From NCBI GenBank assembly GCA_001914405.1, contig MSDW01000001.1, positions 1,429,169 to 1,493,168 of the forward strand: 64,000 nucleotides of DNA, in the 5' to 3' direction. A program made the translations under genes and the position numbers. The notes under the pieces are model-generated. The model ran no database searches. It was given only the letters and a program-made list of their open reading frames with translations, and had not been told where the DNA came from. Below are positions 8,716-14,982 of the stretch, in pieces. Source of the DNA: Candidatus Methanohalarchaeum thermophilum. Its GTDB lineage: Archaea > Halobacteriota > Methanonatronarchaeia > Methanonatronarchaeales > Methanonatronarchaeaceae. Within the stretch, counting starts at the first letter, position 1; each line of letters begins with the position of its first letter.

Positions 8716-9249
8716 ATGAATGGTACTGAGCTGCCAATTTTTCTTCTTTAGGGGGGGTTGGGTATGGTGTTATATCTTTTCTTTTTTTTTGGGGGTTGGT
8801 GTTTCTTTTTTTATTTAGAGGATGTGTTGTTGGGGATATAATTTTTTTCTGTCCATTTGTTTTCTTTCTTTTTGGTGTTTGGGTGGGTATGTGGGTGGTT
8901 GAGAAGTTTTCTTTGGGAGGTGTTTTTGGGTATTTGGTCTGTGACTGTAATTTTCTTGGAATCAACTTTTCTGGGTAGTGAAGGTTGGTGGAGAGGGAGG
9001 GAAAGGCCAGCCACTAAATGTGGCTGGCAGAGGGGTGGTACCGTGAATTGATAGGGTTGGGGTGACTCCGCCTAGGAGGGGGGTGTCTGTGAGGGCTTTT
9101 AAAACCCCTAATCTCGCAAGTTTTCCTATCCTGGCAGTTTCCTGAGAAAGAGAAGGGAGCCGAGGGAGCGGCCTCGTAGCAATACAAGTCGCTGGAGTAG
9201 TGAACAAACGAGAAGCCCTCTCTCTCTTTAGAGAGGGAGAGGAGGTCAC
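8716..9249 (+). mobile_element. Non-coding IS200/IS605-derived element, copy 1
   Basis: About 490 bp are nearly identical to 43741-44240, differing by a 2-bp indel near the start, one C indel and one substitution. The first 270 bp are extremely G/T-rich on the plus strand. The rest is foldable, including a 9-bp perfect hairpin GCCAGCCAC-taaat-GTGGCTGGC at 9006-9028. The 3' end (9211-9249) is a GAAGCCCTC palindrome ending GGAGGTCAC, typical of archaeal IS1341-type right ends. It directly follows TTGAT, the last part of which is the stop codon of the FMN subunit gene. No credible protein is encoded. It is probably a non-autonomous element mobilised in trans. Confidence 0.75.
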
Positions 9250-9752
9250 AAACCTTGTTAAGAAATTAAAGTAGGTTTATTTTTTCTTTATTTTGCTATT
9301 AAGTTTGTCATCTTCTAGAAAACTAACTATTTTAAGGACTAAAGAGATAAAAAAATGGGATTAGAATATATGGAGAAATCTTTTTAGGTAAATAGAGTGT
9401 TCAGGTGTAATAGTATAGATTAAGAGCTTATTTAATTCATTATCGTAGATTAAAGCTTTTAAAGGTTAAGGATGTCAATTAAACAGGTTTGAGGGTGAGA
9501 AAGTTTAGTTAAGATTATGGCTTCGGAAGGATTTTTTGGAAGTTGTTGTTGTTGAATCAAAAATTGATCCTGATTGATTAAAATGTTGATTTAAGGTTTT
9601 TATTTGGTGAAATAATTTTTAATAATGTTTTTTTGATTTTTGGCTTAGTCTTAGTTTTAAGAGCTTATAAGAGTGGATTATAGTAGATTGTTTTTTCTAG
9701 TTTCTGCTTTGGGTATGTAATGTAGCGAGTTTTGACAACCTACATAAAGACC
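9250..9752. other. AT-rich intergenic DNA, nothing recognised
   Basis: About 500 bp between the mobile element and the peptide promoter. I see scattered short direct matches but no open frame, tRNA or clear insertion-element end. Confidence 0.5.
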
Positions 9753-9783
9753 TACAGGCGCACCTGTAAAATTGCTTTATAAG
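9753..9783 (+). promoter_or_regulatory. Palindromic operator plus TATA box for the peptide-prenyltransferase operon
   Basis: The 16-bp inverted repeat TACAGGCGCACCTGTA (9753-9768) lies directly upstream of a GCTTTATAAG TATA element (9774-9783). A start of transcription near 9803-9808 would leave a short leader before the peptide gene. A GGCACCT (9789-9795) / AGGTGCC (9821-9827) pair could also fold over the peptide start region. An operator position overlapping the TFB recognition element is inferred. Confidence 0.55.
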
Positions 9784-9816
9784 TGGATGGCACCTATTTT
9801 GAGTTAAGAAGAAATA

Positions 9817-9909
9817 ATGGAGGTGCCTAAGTTGGAAGAAAAGGAAAAGGAAGAGGAAATAGCAGAGGAAATATTTGAAGAAGAAAGCACGACATATACA
9901 CTTTGGTGA
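9817..9909 (+). CDS. Small acidic peptide, candidate precursor of a modified peptide
   Basis: A 30-codon frame runs from ATG 9817 to TGA 9909. An alternative TTG start at 9832 has an excellent GGAGGTG site 6 nt upstream and would give 25 residues. The N-terminal part is almost wholly Glu/Lys/Ile (leader-like) and the last seven residues, STTYTLW, are hydroxyl and aromatic residues ending in Trp. The stop is 14 bp before the UbiA-type prenyltransferase start, and a palindrome-TATA promoter precedes it. I do not recognise the peptide family. A precursor modified at the C-terminal Tyr or Trp by the neighbouring membrane enzyme is inferred from layout only. Confidence 0.55.
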   Translation: MEVPKLEEKEKEEEIAEEIFEEESTTYTLW

Positions 9910-9923
9910 GGAACGAGGTTTAG

Positions 9924-10862
9924 ATGTATAATAGAAAAATCGATAAGATTAAGGGATTTTTGGAATTATCGATTATTCCTCCACATGTTTATTTTCCAAT
10001 CTTAATTCTTTATTTTTTTATATTTATATTAACTGAGGGTATACCTAGTAATGTACTTGGAAGGTTTTTAATAGTTTTTTTATTTGGTTTAATTAATTCT
10101 ATGTCTATAACTTTTTTTAATAATGTTAGTGATTACGAGGAGGACAAAATTAAAGGAAAAAGAAATCTTGTTACTGAAGAAATTTTGTCTATAGATGTTG
10201 GGATTTATTTGTCAATGTTTTTGTATCTGATTGGACTCGTATTCTCAGTTGTTTTATCTTGTTCTATAGATTATTTTATTATAGTTCCTTATGTTGTGTT
10301 CTCTTTTTTTACTTGGTGGTATTCAGATCGTTTCTTTTTAGGGAATTTTTTTGGGTTTAGGTTGAAGGAAAATTACTTGACGGAATTGATTACTTATCTG
10401 GTCACATTTCCTTGTTTTTCTCTCTCGGGTTGGCTGATAATGACTGATTTAGACATGAAGGTATTTTTGATTGTATTTTTGTTTACTACTTTAGTGATTT
10501 CTTTTATGTTATTAAAGGATATTAAGGATTTATCTTCTGATAAAAAATCTGGAATATCTTCATTTGCTGTTGTATATGATATTAGTACATTATTGAAAAC
10601 TTCAAGCTATTTAAATATAGTTTTCTATTTTGGGTTAATTTACCTTGGGCTTAGAAACTACTTAAGTTGGGGCGTTTTTTTTATTTTGTTGCCTCTAGCT
10701 TTCTTCTTGAAAGAAGTCTACTATCCATTAAGGTCTAAAAAGTGGAAGATAAGTATGGAGATGAGAGGAATTGTAAAAAAATACTATTTAAATATATATT
10801 TTACTTTTTTGATTTTGATTTTAGGTTTAATTGTAGATAATTTTTTGATATTCAGATTTTAA
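9924..10862 (+). CDS. UbiA-family membrane prenyltransferase
   Basis: The 312-residue protein is very hydrophobic, with about eight or nine membrane segments. Both UbiA aspartate-rich motifs are present: NNVSDYEED (residues 66-74) and DIKDLSSDKKSG (199-210), which bind the prenyl diphosphate through magnesium. These enzymes move isoprenyl chains onto aromatic or glycerol acceptors in the membrane. It is divergent from the archaeal lipid enzyme DGGGP synthase in its N-terminal region, and no quinone or heme genes are nearby. The coupling to a tiny acidic peptide gene suggests an unusual acceptor. Its last 11 bp overlap the convergent FIST gene. Confidence 0.8.
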   Translation: MYNRKIDKIKGFLELSIIPPHVYFPILILYFFIFILTEGIPSNVLGRFLIVFLFGLINSMSITFFNNVSDYEEDKIKGKRNLVTEEILSIDVGIYLSMFLYLIGLVFSVVLSCSIDYFIIVPYVVFSFFTWWYSDRFFLGNFFGFRLKENYLTELITYLVTFPCFSLSGWLIMTDLDMKVFLIVFLFTTLVISFMLLKDIKDLSSDKKSGISSFAVVYDISTLLKTSSYLNIVFYFGLIYLGLRNYLSWGVFFILLPLAFFLKEVYYPLRSKKWKISMEMRGIVKKYYLNIYFTFLILILGLIVDNFLIFRF

Positions 10863-12210
10863 ATGTTAGGTTAGTTCCTCCACCGGAGAAAAATATTTCC
10901 CTGTCAACTTCGGTCAAATAATCTTGATTTTGTTGGTTCTCTGGCAAGTAAGCTGCTGGAGGATATGTAAATATGGCTAAATAATTTTCTTCTAATTTTT
11001 CCTCAAAATGTTTTCTATATTTCATTAGTTTCTCGCCAAAAGTTGCTACAGTTGAAAGATCAATCGAAGTTAATTTAAATCTATTTTTATCTTTTACTTT
11101 ATTTATAGAAGAAATATATTTTAGAAGTTTTCCCCTTGATGGCTCGTATCCAAGTATAGCTTCTTTTGAAAAATTTGATAGGTCGATATATGTTGGATAA
11201 AGGCTGAAGGGGAAGGAATTTTTGATACCTATCTGGGTTCCTCCATATGTTTCTTCATTAAATAGAAATAATATGTACGGTGTTTCTGATGAAACCTTTC
11301 CTTTCTCAAAATCTTCTTTTAGTTCTTGATCTTCAATCTTAGAACTGGAATCTATTTCGTTAACGACATCTTTTACTGTTTGATTGTTTATCTTAGTGAT
11401 AATATTTTGAATGCATTCAATCTCAATTTCCTTAATCGGTTCTATTTCTTTTTTTACGATTTCTTTATTTTTCTTAAGATCATCAGTCTTTGAGGGATAT
11501 ATATCATCATAAATAGGTTTAGATCCATTTTTTTCAATTAAAAGTATTGATAAATCACCTTTAATATTTCTATAGTTAGAAAATACATTAGGAGAGTCTA
11601 AACCTAAGTTAGAGTGCCCTAGGTTTATGTTTACTACCGGCGTAGATTCTTGGTTTGAAAATTTCTCTAGGACCTTGTTAGGAGGCCTGACATTTCCTTT
11701 TTTGTATAAATGATCTGAAAAACCTTTAATTAAGTCTTTATTATTTTTCGTTATTTTAGGCCTGATATCATAGTACTTGGCCTTTGCTAGAGTTTTAAAT
11801 AAATCTCTCCGATTCCTAAAGTAAATTATAGGTGAGTGTATTACAGCTAAATCCTTTTCTTTTATATCTAGTTCTTTAATCAGGTCTTTACCGGATTCGT
11901 TAAATTTACTGTATTTAAATGACTTTACTCTAAATCTAGCTTTTTTATCTTCTATTAAAGTTAAAAAAACCCCATCTGTTCTCAATTCACCCCTAAATAA
12001 TGCCCCATCAATGGTACCACCTGTTTGAGGAATATTACCGAACTCTTTTTCTATGATTTTGAGGATATCTTGATAGTTGCCACTATACCTTTTTGTTGAA
12101 TAAATTAACGCTAGATCAGGTTTCATCTCCTTTTTTTTGGCCTTATTAACAACATTCGAAGCTGCCTTAATTGGTTCATTTTCGTTACTAAAGAATGTAC
12201 AAGATCTCAT
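10852..12210 (-). CDS. FIST-domain sensory protein
   Basis: The 452-residue soluble protein begins MRSCTFFSNENEPIKAASN, and the pattern DLALIYSTKRY ... GGTIDGALFRGE ... GVFLTLI matches the FIST N domain. The C-terminal part (YILFLFNEETYGGTQIGIKN, then AIFTYPPAAYLP) fits the FIST C domain. FIST domains are predicted small-ligand sensors, perhaps for amino acids. A Lys/Glu-rich linker lies between. It is the last gene of a KaiC-like / roadblock / FIST operon, 9 bp after the roadblock gene. The ligand is unknown. Confidence 0.7.
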   Translation of the reverse strand: MRSCTFFSNENEPIKAASNVVNKAKKKEMKPDLALIYSTKRYSGNYQDILKIIEKEFGNIPQTGGTIDGALFRGELRTDGVFLTLIEDKKARFRVKSFKYSKFNESGKDLIKELDIKEKDLAVIHSPIIYFRNRRDLFKTLAKAKYYDIRPKITKNNKDLIKGFSDHLYKKGNVRPPNKVLEKFSNQESTPVVNINLGHSNLGLDSPNVFSNYRNIKGDLSILLIEKNGSKPIYDDIYPSKTDDLKKNKEIVKKEIEPIKEIEIECIQNIITKINNQTVKDVVNEIDSSSKIEDQELKEDFEKGKVSSETPYILFLFNEETYGGTQIGIKNSFPFSLYPTYIDLSNFSKEAILGYEPSRGKLLKYISSINKVKDKNRFKLTSIDLSTVATFGEKLMKYRKHFEEKLEENYLAIFTYPPAAYLPENQQNQDYLTEVDREIFFSGGGTNLTFKI

Positions 12211-12219
12211 TTTAGGTTC

Positions 12220-12576
12220 TTAGGTTATTATTTTATTTACTTTGTCTCTAGTACCTATAGCCTCCATCTTTATTAAATCACGATGCGCTTCTTCTTCTGT
12301 AACCACAGCCAGAACTGTTGATTGGGATGACGGATAAAAAACCACCTGAAGTTCATCAAACGAAAAGTCCACACTGTCAAGATTTTTTTTCTTAATCTCG
12401 TTTATAACATATTTAACTTGGTTTTTCATCCATTTCATCAACTTGATTATTTCATTCTTATCTCCCGGTATCCTTACTTGTATTATTTCACCATCTAATC
12501 TGTATAGAATACAGGCTTTTACTCCAGGGATATTCGATAATTCCCTTAATTCCTTATTTAATTTATCTACCTTCAT
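12220..12576 (-). CDS. Roadblock/LC7-like domain protein
   Basis: The 118-residue protein has the short alpha-beta layout of the roadblock/LC7 (MglB-like) fold: IPGVKACILYRLDGEIIQ, then helices, then LQVVFYPSSQSTVLAVVT. Such proteins dimerise and regulate small GTPases or other NTPases. Its ATG overlaps the stop of the KaiC-like ATPase gene by 4 bp, implying translational coupling and possibly a complex. Assignment rests on fold pattern and context. Confidence 0.6.
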   Translation of the reverse strand: MKVDKLNKELRELSNIPGVKACILYRLDGEIIQVRIPGDKNEIIKLMKWMKNQVKYVINEIKKKNLDSVDFSFDELQVVFYPSSQSTVLAVVTEEEAHRDLIKMEAIGTRDKVNKIIT

Positions 12577-13451
12577 TCTTCCTTCTCAGTCCTTAAAACT
12601 TCTTCAATTACCTTGTCAGGCTTTTCATCTCTAGTCCAATTATTTCTCAAAATCTCCAATCTATTTAAGATGCTCTCTTGGACTTCTCCATCTAATTTAC
12701 TCTTTACTTCTTTTTTGGCCTCAACAAACTTTTCATCATATCTTTTATGAGATCTGATATCTTTTAATTGATCTTCGGATGCCTCTACTACTAATCCTAG
12801 CCCAGAAAGAATATCAATAGGATAAACGCCTTCACCATGATTAGTTCCTCTATTTTTAATGATCTTAAGTGTTCTATCATACATTTCTCCAAATCCTAGG
12901 TTTTCTAGATGTACAACGCTGTCAGCAAGATATAAAGGAGTTGAGCTGTCTTCATCATTAGAGAGCCCTCTTTCTTCAAGAGTTATTACAGCTGTTGAGA
13001 TATTTCTCAGTCCCTCAAAAAATTTACTAAGAGCCTTTCTTTCGTTTTTACTTCTTAAAGAAAAGGTTAAATGGGTTAATGGATCTATAATAACTCTAGA
13101 TGCCCTAGATCTCTTATCTTTTCCTCTTATTTTTTTTAATAGATCTTTTGAAAGAAATAGAACATCTTCTCCAAATTCATGGATAATTTCAAGTTGATTA
13201 TTCTCAAGGTATTTAGTTATTTCATCCCAACCCATATCCTTGCATTCCTTCACGATCTGTTTCTTAGTCATCTCAAAGGAGACATAAGTAACCTTTTCTC
13301 CTCTATTTAGTCCGTATAGTGCATATTGAAGGCCAAAAGTAGTTTTTCCAACACCTGTTTTACCATAAACTAAATTAACCGTTCCTTCCCTGTACCCTCC
13401 TCCTAATATTGGATCAAGACCGTACACTCCAGTTTTAATTTTATCACTCAT
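12573..13451 (-). CDS. KaiC/RadA-like RecA-superfamily ATPase
   Basis: A single KaiC-type ATPase domain: GVYGLDPILGGGYREG, Walker A YGKTGVGKTTFG near residue 31, and a Walker B-like SRVIIDPLTHL strand. It has about 292 residues, half the length of two-domain KaiC, as in archaeal KaiC-like signalling ATPases. The start is the ATG at 13451; a TTG at 13457 is also possible. It is the first gene of the operon with roadblock and FIST genes. A signal-relay role, with the FIST protein as sensor and the roadblock protein as regulator, is inferred. Confidence 0.8.
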   Translation of the reverse strand: MSDKIKTGVYGLDPILGGGYREGTVNLVYGKTGVGKTTFGLQYALYGLNRGEKVTYVSFEMTKKQIVKECKDMGWDEITKYLENNQLEIIHEFGEDVLFLSKDLLKKIRGKDKRSRASRVIIDPLTHLTFSLRSKNERKALSKFFEGLRNISTAVITLEERGLSNDEDSSTPLYLADSVVHLENLGFGEMYDRTLKIIKNRGTNHGEGVYPIDILSGLGLVVEASEDQLKDIRSHKRYDEKFVEAKKEVKSKLDGEVQESILNRLEILRNNWTRDEKPDKVIEEVLRTEKEE

Positions 13452-13573
13452 AATCAAAACCTGAAATTAATTTGTTTTTAAATATTGGATATGGAATATT
13501 AAAACCTAAACCCAAATTACCTCTAACCTAAATTACCTATTACATTTCGAATAAATGAAATAATTTCTATTTT

Positions 13574-13990
13574 AACTTATTTGGTGAGAAATCCCCCTCC
13601 TAGATCTTTGGTTTAGGTGGGGATGAGTCAGCACTAAGATGTTTGTATTGGGGAATCGAATAGGGTTTTGTTGAGAGGTTTCGAGCATATGGGCTGAGTT
13701 TGAGCAGCCGAGTGCCTCGGGAATTTAGGTTCTTCCGCAAAGGGATACGTGGAAGACCTCGGAACGGAGCCCCAGTAATCGGACTGGGCCCCGTAACTGG
13801 GGCATATGATAGTGATGGATATAGGGGATGTTCTGGGAAAACAGTTTAAGTCCTTGTAACCTGCTAACTAGACCCGAGCCGAGCTCGGCATACACCCCCT
13901 GGTAGGGAGCTATGAGCCTCGGAACCTGAAGAACTCTAAATAGGTGGAAGCACATTCCTAATCTTTGAGTTAGGCAGATGAGGAGGTCAC
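13574..13990 (+). mobile_element. Non-coding IS200/IS605-derived element with structured interior
   Basis: The left end (13574-13630) and right end (13945-13990, ending GGAGGTCAC) are palindromic ends of the family seen throughout the window. The interior is far more GC-rich than the surroundings and has strong hairpins, such as GCCCC-GTAACT-GGGGC and CCGAG/CTCGG. No protein frame is credible. An omega-RNA-like transcript or other structured RNA is possible. Confidence 0.6.
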
Positions 13991-14106
13991 AAGCAATGAA
14001 TCGTAAAACCTAGGTTCCTTTAGGGAAAAGGAACGAGTGCATTTCTATCCTGATAAAAAATTTAGGTGCACAAGGAAAAATGTGTTTTTTGATAGAAACT
14101 GCCAGT

Positions 14107-14446
14107 TTATCTTATCAGTCGGCTGAAGACCTCTTTCAAAATCAGAGATTTTTGGAAGATGGCCTCCAGGGCCTAAGGAGGTTTACTTCTTGCCACCGTC
14201 AAATCATCTCAGTCCAGGGCCAAGGGTATCCAAGAAGCTTTATTCGGGGAGATTCTCTGGCCCAAGCCAGCGAACTTGGTAACCAGAACTCTCAATCTGT
14301 CCACGGGCTCTAGCCTTCGGCCACAACCCCTGCCTACAGCCAAAACCTAAGACACGAAGCCATTTAAGCCTTATAGGTTGATTCATCTCTCTATCAAAAT
14401 CAAAGATCTTGGAAAGAGGCCTCCTCAACCATTAAGATAAGGAGTT
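14107..14446. mobile_element. Fragment flanked by inverted left ends
   Basis: A left end facing right (TTTATCTTATCAG..GAAGACCTC, 14107-14168) and a left end facing left (14383-14446) enclose about 215 bp of GC-rich DNA. The arrangement differs from the usual left-end/right-end pair and looks like a rearranged or nested insertion. No coding frame is credible. Confidence 0.5.
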
Positions 14447-14982
14447 AGAATCTTTTTGGGTTAGGATATAACTCAAACTGAGCATAATTTTGACTTCTTC
14501 GTTGATTTTTTTAACTTCCGTGAGAGTTTGAGAGAGCGACATAGTCCCGGTTCTTTAGGATGGGAACTATGCTGCTTTGTCATTGTCAGCCGAAAGGTTC
14601 ATAAAGCTACTTATTTGATGTGCTAGTGACTGGTTCATGGTTAGCTCCGAGGCCCCAAGTTGTGTGGAAGGGTTAGGATATGAGGGAATGAATTCTTTCA
14701 TGCATTACGCCTTCTACTGTGAACAGGAGTCCTTGTGACAGGGCAGGGCAGGGCAGAGCAGGGCAGAGCAGGGCAGGGCCCGGGAAGCCACTACCGGTGG
14801 ACTCAGCCTCTGTGCTGGTGCTCCAGTAAAAAGTTAGCGAAGATAAGTAGGTATGTAGGTAACTGTTTAGGATGTCTATGAAGAGAGTGTTTCTCTTCAT
14901 GCTACTTCTTTTGGTGCCCCGAAAGCAGATGGCATGAGTAGATGGATGGAATCCTTTTCCTTTAGGAAAAGGGGGATGTCAC
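14447..14982 (+). mobile_element. Non-coding IS-derived element related to 16195-16633
   Basis: The right end is a clear palindrome (CCTTTTCC-tttag-GAAAAGGGGGATGTCAC, 14951-14982). The interior motif GGAAGCCACTACC followed by a GCCT-TGTG and an AGGTAGGTA/GTAAC stretch recurs at 16430-16480, so the two are relatives. The left boundary is uncertain. It holds a GGGCA microrepeat. No protein is encoded. Confidence 0.55.
14741..14780 (+). repeat. GGGCA pentanucleotide tandem repeat
   Basis: Eight 5-bp units of GGGCA or GAGCA run together inside the non-coding element, the last ending in GGGCC. Slippage is the likely origin. Confidence 0.85.

Follow-up and report, generated by a model that had tools for sequence, protein, structure and literature searches.

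A short peptide gene paired with a divergent UbiA-type membrane prenyltransferase in a conserved archaeal module suggests a lipid-peptide system

In a stretch of 64,000 nucleotides from Candidatus Methanohalarchaeum thermophilum (GenBank assembly GCA_001914405.1, contig MSDW01000001.1, positions 1,429,169 to 1,493,168; here called the window and numbered from its first nucleotide), a gene for a very short charged peptide directly precedes a gene for a divergent membrane prenyltransferase of the UbiA superfamily, and three genes on the opposite strand complete a five-gene module that recurs in related archaea. Sequence comparison suggests that these genes form a previously undescribed lipid-peptide system, possibly a signalling system. 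We tentatively propose that a charged helical leader guides UbiA to prenylate the C-terminal end of this ribosomal peptide of 15-30 residues and that the product would be read by a relay of FIST, Roadblock and KaiC proteins. The pair at the centre of this proposal is made up as follows, with the UbiA start codon (ATG) 14 nt past the peptide stop:

9832 to 9909, forward strand: peptide gene, most likely starting at TTG and encoding M(L)EEKEKEEEIAEEIFEEESTTYTLW, 25 amino acids (aa); basis: family alignment, codon test, position and shuffles
9924 to 10862, forward strand: divergent UbiA-superfamily membrane prenyltransferase, an open reading frame (ORF) of 312 aa; basis: PF01040, phylogenetic tree and AlphaFold2 (AF2) model of a relative

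Orthologous loci were collected with UbiA as query against 100 related genomes and with the neighbouring FIST protein as query against 393 genomes of the phylum. A single-sequence search of genome contigs gave no match, whereas an alignment-based search of contigs did find loci and added five named Archaeoglobaceae contigs. The loci stem from the Archaeoglobaceae (f6), the window's own family (f1) and families f26, f30, f31, f35 and f36; those cut by a contig end (L071 with its duplicate L106, and L075) were left out. A gene for a Lys/Glu-rich peptide of 15-29 aa stands at the orthologous UbiA gene in 49 of the 49 evaluable loci from seven archaeal families, about 40 of which belong to the Archaeoglobaceae and are hence not independent. 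The conserved upstream peptide that the original prediction had proposed to look for at homologous UbiA genes thus exists. It lies 5' of UbiA in 48 loci and just 3' of it in a single genome, G149, where it reads MKAEEVFKKAVLYGL; this position indicates that the peptide product matters rather than a 5' leader. Further examples are MERKDERKEAEKVFKEIKIFAG (G116), MKNEKQKSQRKEDEKVAEEMFKGVKLYGG (G328), MKKDRKEAEEVFKKVKLFAG (G208), MSKKEKDQKEKAEELFDEEKAFTML (G001) and, for the window itself, MEEKEKEEEIAEEIFEEESTTYTLW. The distance between the two genes ranges from overlap to 105 nt, and several stop/start overlaps suggest translational coupling.

The peptide family is also recognizable by sequence. 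When a hidden Markov model (HMM) of the family was run over 18,121 small ORFs of the fetched loci, 111 matches at E<=1 were obtained, all at the peptide position and none at other, paralogous UbiA genes; these matches include many duplicate or overlapping loci, and the same peptides had served to train the model. Whole-genome scans of 16 genomes returned the cluster copy as the sole significant one, with no significant stand-alone extra copies, and G149 was left without a significant copy. A Thermofilaceae relative of UbiA (L133), which comes without peptide and cluster, was set aside and kept as an outgroup contrast.

The peptides begin with a conserved charged leader, which ends in [AV]E[EK]xFKx[IV][KR][LI][FY]; behind it comes a variable tail, 1-4 residues long. 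Within the leader, E22 is present in 47, F25 in 44 and K/R29 in 46 of 48 alignment rows. A codon test on 13 independent peptide pairs counted 71 synonymous versus 29 non-synonymous differences in the leader (pN/pS, the ratio of non-synonymous to synonymous change, 0.09), with 12, 14 and 74 changes at codon positions 1, 2 and 3, respectively. For the tail the ratio is 0.57 and the changes are spread as 19, 22 and 26; residue identity amounts to 221/245 (90%) in the leader and 11/33 (33%) in the tail. By the low ratio and the third-position excess in the leader, the peptide is a translated product under selection on its protein sequence. A short precursor, a conserved leader, a variable core and an adjacent candidate modifying enzyme make up the leader/core pattern of a ribosomally synthesized and post-translationally modified peptide. 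The consensus has a hydrophobic face A-V/F-I-F, residues 2-24 of the L088 peptide are predicted to form a helix, and AF2 modelling of a read-through fusion of peptide and UbiA gave a good UbiA fold together with a helical peptide.

The composition of the tails narrows the chemistry that can be envisaged. A C-terminal Trp had originally been taken as the defining feature of the peptide, with an aromatic residue as the general target of prenylation; neither is supported across the family. Trp ends only 4/49 peptides and occurs anywhere in 5/49, Tyr is found within the last seven residues of 16/49, and 13/49 tails are devoid of Y, W, C, S, T, K or H in their last five residues, by which we reject a mechanism common to the whole family in which Trp or Tyr is prenylated. 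The last residue is G, A, S, T or C in 39/49 peptides.

The enzyme belongs to the UbiA superfamily. The window protein scores 70 bits against PF01040 (cut-off 34), and the predicted pair of a small frame and a divergent UbiA gene 14 nt downstream lies at the coordinates first given. Both Asp-rich motifs, also part of that prediction, are present: N66/D70/D74 (NxxxDxxxD) and D199/D202/D206 (DxxDxxxD) do not vary among 13 cluster UbiA sequences, and the corresponding Asp-motif residues are invariant in 27 UbiA sequences. The AF2 model of the L088 enzyme reached a mean confidence (pLDDT) of 90.2 and, in Foldseek, a TM score of 0.75 (by target) to digeranylgeranylglyceryl phosphate (DGGGP) synthase 7bpu; the nearest solved structures are DGGGP synthase (6m31/7bpu) and UBIAD1 (8djk). 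In a maximum-likelihood tree built without any chlorophyll synthase sequence, a branch with support 100/98 separates the cluster enzymes from their paralogues in the same genomes, which NCBIfam names DGGGP-type, MqnP/UbiA-type and heme O synthase. Deeper placement is unsure owing to a long-branch Thermofilaceae sequence and the long branch of the window protein. All cluster enzymes score far under every NCBIfam cut-off (best value for the window protein 36 bits against a cut-off of 269). Tree and cut-offs together lead us to reject an assignment to the DGGGP, heme O or quinone enzymes, as had been anticipated. By sequence, then, the cluster UbiA is a separate clade that is co-inherited with the peptide and the FIST gene.

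The genes that converge on UbiA are:

10852 to 12210, reverse strand: FIST-fold protein, 452 aa; basis: PF08495 in relatives, AF2 and Foldseek
12220 to 12576, reverse strand: Roadblock/LC7-domain protein, 118 aa; basis: profile matches to Robl_LC7 structures, PF03259 in relatives
12573 to 13457, reverse strand: KaiC-family ATPase, 294 aa; basis: PF06745 (138 bits), conserved in the module

The peptide and UbiA had been regarded as a two-gene unit. The coupling of the two is well founded, whereas the convergent FIST, Roadblock and KaiC genes of the same module had been overlooked. In the window the 3' ends of the UbiA and FIST genes overlap by 11 nt, and a FIST gene adjoins UbiA convergently in 45 of the 45 loci with a sufficiently long contig; Roadblock/LC7 and KaiC-like genes usually come after it, except that both are not nearby in L081 and are rearranged in L095. 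PF08495 (FIST N) was detected in 8/12 relatives, and the window copy lies just below the cut-off (20.7 versus 23.2 bits); the fold assignment is backed by an AF2 model (pLDDT 90.6) with the FIST domain of FBXO22 (8s7e/8s7d) as best Foldseek match. The Roadblock A3 profile matches the Robl_LC7 structures 9e5c (E 7e-4) and 7f8m (E 2e-3), and PF03259 is found in 3/12 members, the window copy alone being without a Pfam match. Variations on the module were also encountered. The FIST gene is tandemly duplicated in one Archaeoglobaceae genome (G193; L073, 1589-4433) and split into two ORFs of 1050 and 189 nt in G116 (L098, 7389-8605), possibly by a frameshift or a sequencing error. In several Archaeoglobaceae loci (L022, L025, L027, L028, L029) a gene for a RadA-like recombinase, a weak match to the KaiC profile with the N-terminal motif DLEDLPGVGPAIAEKLRE, directly precedes the KaiC gene.

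FIST domains have been described as ligand sensors. A regulatory role of the module is plausible because KaiC-family ATPases have been proposed as hubs of archaeal signalling (PMC5847659).

The reading that we rank highest, while giving it somewhat less than an even chance, takes the peptide as a leader-guided substrate that is probably lipidated at its C-terminal end by UbiA, with the FIST, Roadblock and KaiC proteins reading the product. A relation of enzyme and substrate agrees with the leader/core pattern, with the strict pairing of the two genes and with their coupled translation. The charged leader, predicted to be helical, would dock to UbiA at its cytoplasmic face and present the C-terminal tail, to which the enzyme would transfer an isoprenoid, with geranylgeranyl as the likely donor group in archaea. 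Since a side-chain nucleophile is missing from many tails, the C-terminal carboxylate is a more likely acceptor than Trp or Tyr; it would be the shared nucleophile if the acceptor lies in the tail in every species. There is precedent within the superfamily, as chlorophyll synthase esterifies a carboxylate; all 13 cluster enzymes examined match the chlorophyll synthase model BchG weakly and far below its cut-off, which is only a hint in this direction. The lipidated peptide, or a tail cut off from it, would serve as a signal or tether located at the membrane; the FIST protein would bind it, and Roadblock and KaiC proteins would pass its state on.

Several observations weigh against such a substrate role. 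No tail residue is conserved as an acceptor across the family, the carboxylate was chosen by elimination, and other UbiA models score as well on the cluster enzymes as BchG does. AF2 confidence is low for the tail of the L088 peptide, and a loosely constrained end in contact with the membrane would explain the variable, hydrophobic tail just as well. The cluster contains no recognised protease or exporter. On a separate point, the window peptide is the most divergent member of its family and scores only 2 bits once left out of the HMM. This low score could be quoted in favour of a chance ORF beside an ordinary UbiA enzyme, an explanation that we find barely credible and that is already refuted for the family, as judged from its occupancy of every evaluable orthologous position, the specificity of the HMM, the codon test and a shuffling test. 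In the latter, composition-preserving shuffles of the window peptide gave p=2e-4 against the peptide of L021 and 0/5000 against that of L095; by this comparison its residue order matches the family beyond composition. Position, shuffles and the intermediate L021 from the same family are the grounds for its membership. Hardly more credible is a regulatory leader ORF, an attenuator controlling the translation of UbiA. It would agree with the 5' position in nearly all loci, but selection acts at the amino-acid level, with 74 of the 100 leader changes at third positions, the peptide gene has its own ribosome-binding site and its spacing to UbiA varies widely; we reject it on the codon test and on the 3' position in G149.

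Close in likelihood to the substrate reading, if doubtful in itself, is a reading in which the peptide serves UbiA as a small partner subunit, an amphipathic helix at the membrane surface by which the enzyme would be stabilised, localised or gated. The UbiA product would then be an ordinary prenylated small molecule, maybe one sensed by the FIST protein. Such a subunit would account for the missing fixed acceptor, including the 13 tails without a side-chain nucleophile, and for the absence of protease and exporter genes, and it agrees with a peptide that is short, single-copy, tightly coupled to UbiA, predicted to be helical and endowed with a hydrophobic face. However, the C-terminal tail is the most variable part of the peptide, which is unexpected for a conserved interface and typical of a core, and the cluster offers no other gene for a small acceptor. 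The constant linkage of the FIST gene, the general description of FIST domains as sensors and the variable tail could also be reconciled with a peptide that serves as pheromone or signal ligand of the FIST-Roadblock-KaiC proteins, with UbiA modifying something else in the pathway such as the lipid environment of the receptor or a second ligand. We consider this improbable, as the peptide is encoded with UbiA and not in the FIST operon and even overlaps UbiA in some genomes.

The known substrates of UbiA enzymes are quinone precursors, heme, chlorophyllide, sugar phosphates and lipids. DGGGP synthase, MqnP/UbiA, heme O synthase and chlorophyll synthase share the fold and both Asp motifs with the cluster enzyme; the paralogous UbiA genes examined lack the small peptide gene that accompanies the latter in every evaluable locus. 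The closest parallel in gene arrangement is ComX/ComQ of the ComQXPA system of Bacillus (with the related PalQ and ChrPC enzymes, which resemble trans-isoprenyl diphosphate synthases, trans-IDS). There, too, a short peptide with a variable C-terminus is encoded beside an isoprenyl-handling enzyme with two Asp-rich motifs, and sensor genes are nearby. In contrast, sequence and fold identify the enzyme described here as an intramembrane UbiA protein and not a trans-IDS, the core Trp acceptor is not conserved, and FIST, Roadblock and KaiC proteins take the place of the histidine kinase pair. Peptide prenylation in ribosomal peptide pathways is likewise carried out by cyanobactin F-type prenyltransferases and by MppC, whose prenylation of a lanthipeptide was found to be leader-dependent in 2025 (PMC12715784). 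The cyanobactin enzymes, however, have a soluble ABBA fold, and cyanobactin and lanthipeptide clusters carry proteases or lanthionine synthetases, none of which occurs in the module. A 2026 review of enzymatic peptide prenylation covers cysteine prenylation, ABBA-fold cyanobactin enzymes and trans-IDS-like enzymes and leaves UbiA unmentioned (PMC13290415). Archaeal KaiC hubs and KaiC or Roadblock genes linked to type IV pili likewise combine a KaiC-family ATPase and Roadblock as regulatory parts; no UbiA, FIST or peptide is described with them in the portions of the two reports that were available (PMC5847659, PMC4858521). A description of the five-gene module was not found in the literature searched on UbiA, peptide prenylation and archaeal KaiC, FIST or Roadblock proteins, and an earlier mention of the neighbourhood is possible.

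The window locus lies between a GC-rich intergenic stretch on one side and the AT-rich operon of the opposite strand on the other. Upstream of the peptide gene the following elements were noted:

9739 to 9756, forward strand: CCTACATAAAGACCTACA, 18 nt, candidate operator or upstream promoter element; basis: exact-match search of two genomes
9754 to 9767, no strand assigned: inverted repeat ACAGG-cgca-CCTGT, read from the sequence
9775 to 9783, forward strand: TATA-box-like CTTTATAAG, read from the sequence
9819 to 9825, forward strand: ribosome-binding-like site GGAGGTG, read from the sequence and by family comparison

Read from ATG 9817 to the stop at 9909, as initially assumed, the peptide would be MEVPKLEEKEKEEEIAEEIFEEESTTYTLW (30 aa). 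GGAGGTG covers this ATG and is spaced 6 nt ahead of the in-frame TTG 9832, and in nearly all relatives a GAGGTG/GGTGA-type (GAGGTGA-type) site likewise stands a few nt before the start codon. TTG 9832 is therefore probably the better start, five codons downstream of the earlier choice. The palindrome and TATA features predicted for the promoter are both present. AT-rich TATA-like boxes occur in relatives at a similar distance; the inverted repeat is not conserved in the Archaeoglobaceae loci. Exact matches to CCTACATAAAGACCTACA number one in the window genome and one in G001 of the same family, both upstream of the peptide-UbiA genes, and no further copies were present in these two genomes. 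In Archaeoglobaceae, AT-rich imperfect palindromes resembling TAATAATTATTA immediately precede the TATA-like region ahead of the peptide gene (e.g. L030, L067, L069, L077, L092); they were not seen before the KaiC genes and are a possible shared operator. Two GC-rich intergenic islands flank the module in the window: 8960-9270 (GC about 0.5 in a region otherwise of 30% GC), a candidate unclassified structured RNA, and a second one, which is about 1.2 kb long and lies past the KaiC gene (13700-14900, GC 0.40-0.54). Neither has an Rfam match or a convincing ORF, and the signal recognition particle and RNase P RNAs were rejected as explanations for these patches as both map elsewhere in the window genome.

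The module is near-universal in Archaeoglobaceae and extends to Methanonatronarchaeia-like and further mcrA-bearing archaea. Its peptide genes are very short and easily overlooked in annotation. Its wide occurrence, with no description found in the literature searched, points to a conserved and as yet uncharacterised membrane-linked function. If the proposed prenylation is true, the cluster enzyme would be the first known UbiA protein with a polypeptide substrate and would define a new class of prenylated ribosomal peptides; a ribosomal peptide as acceptor would widen the chemistry of UbiA enzymes to proteins.
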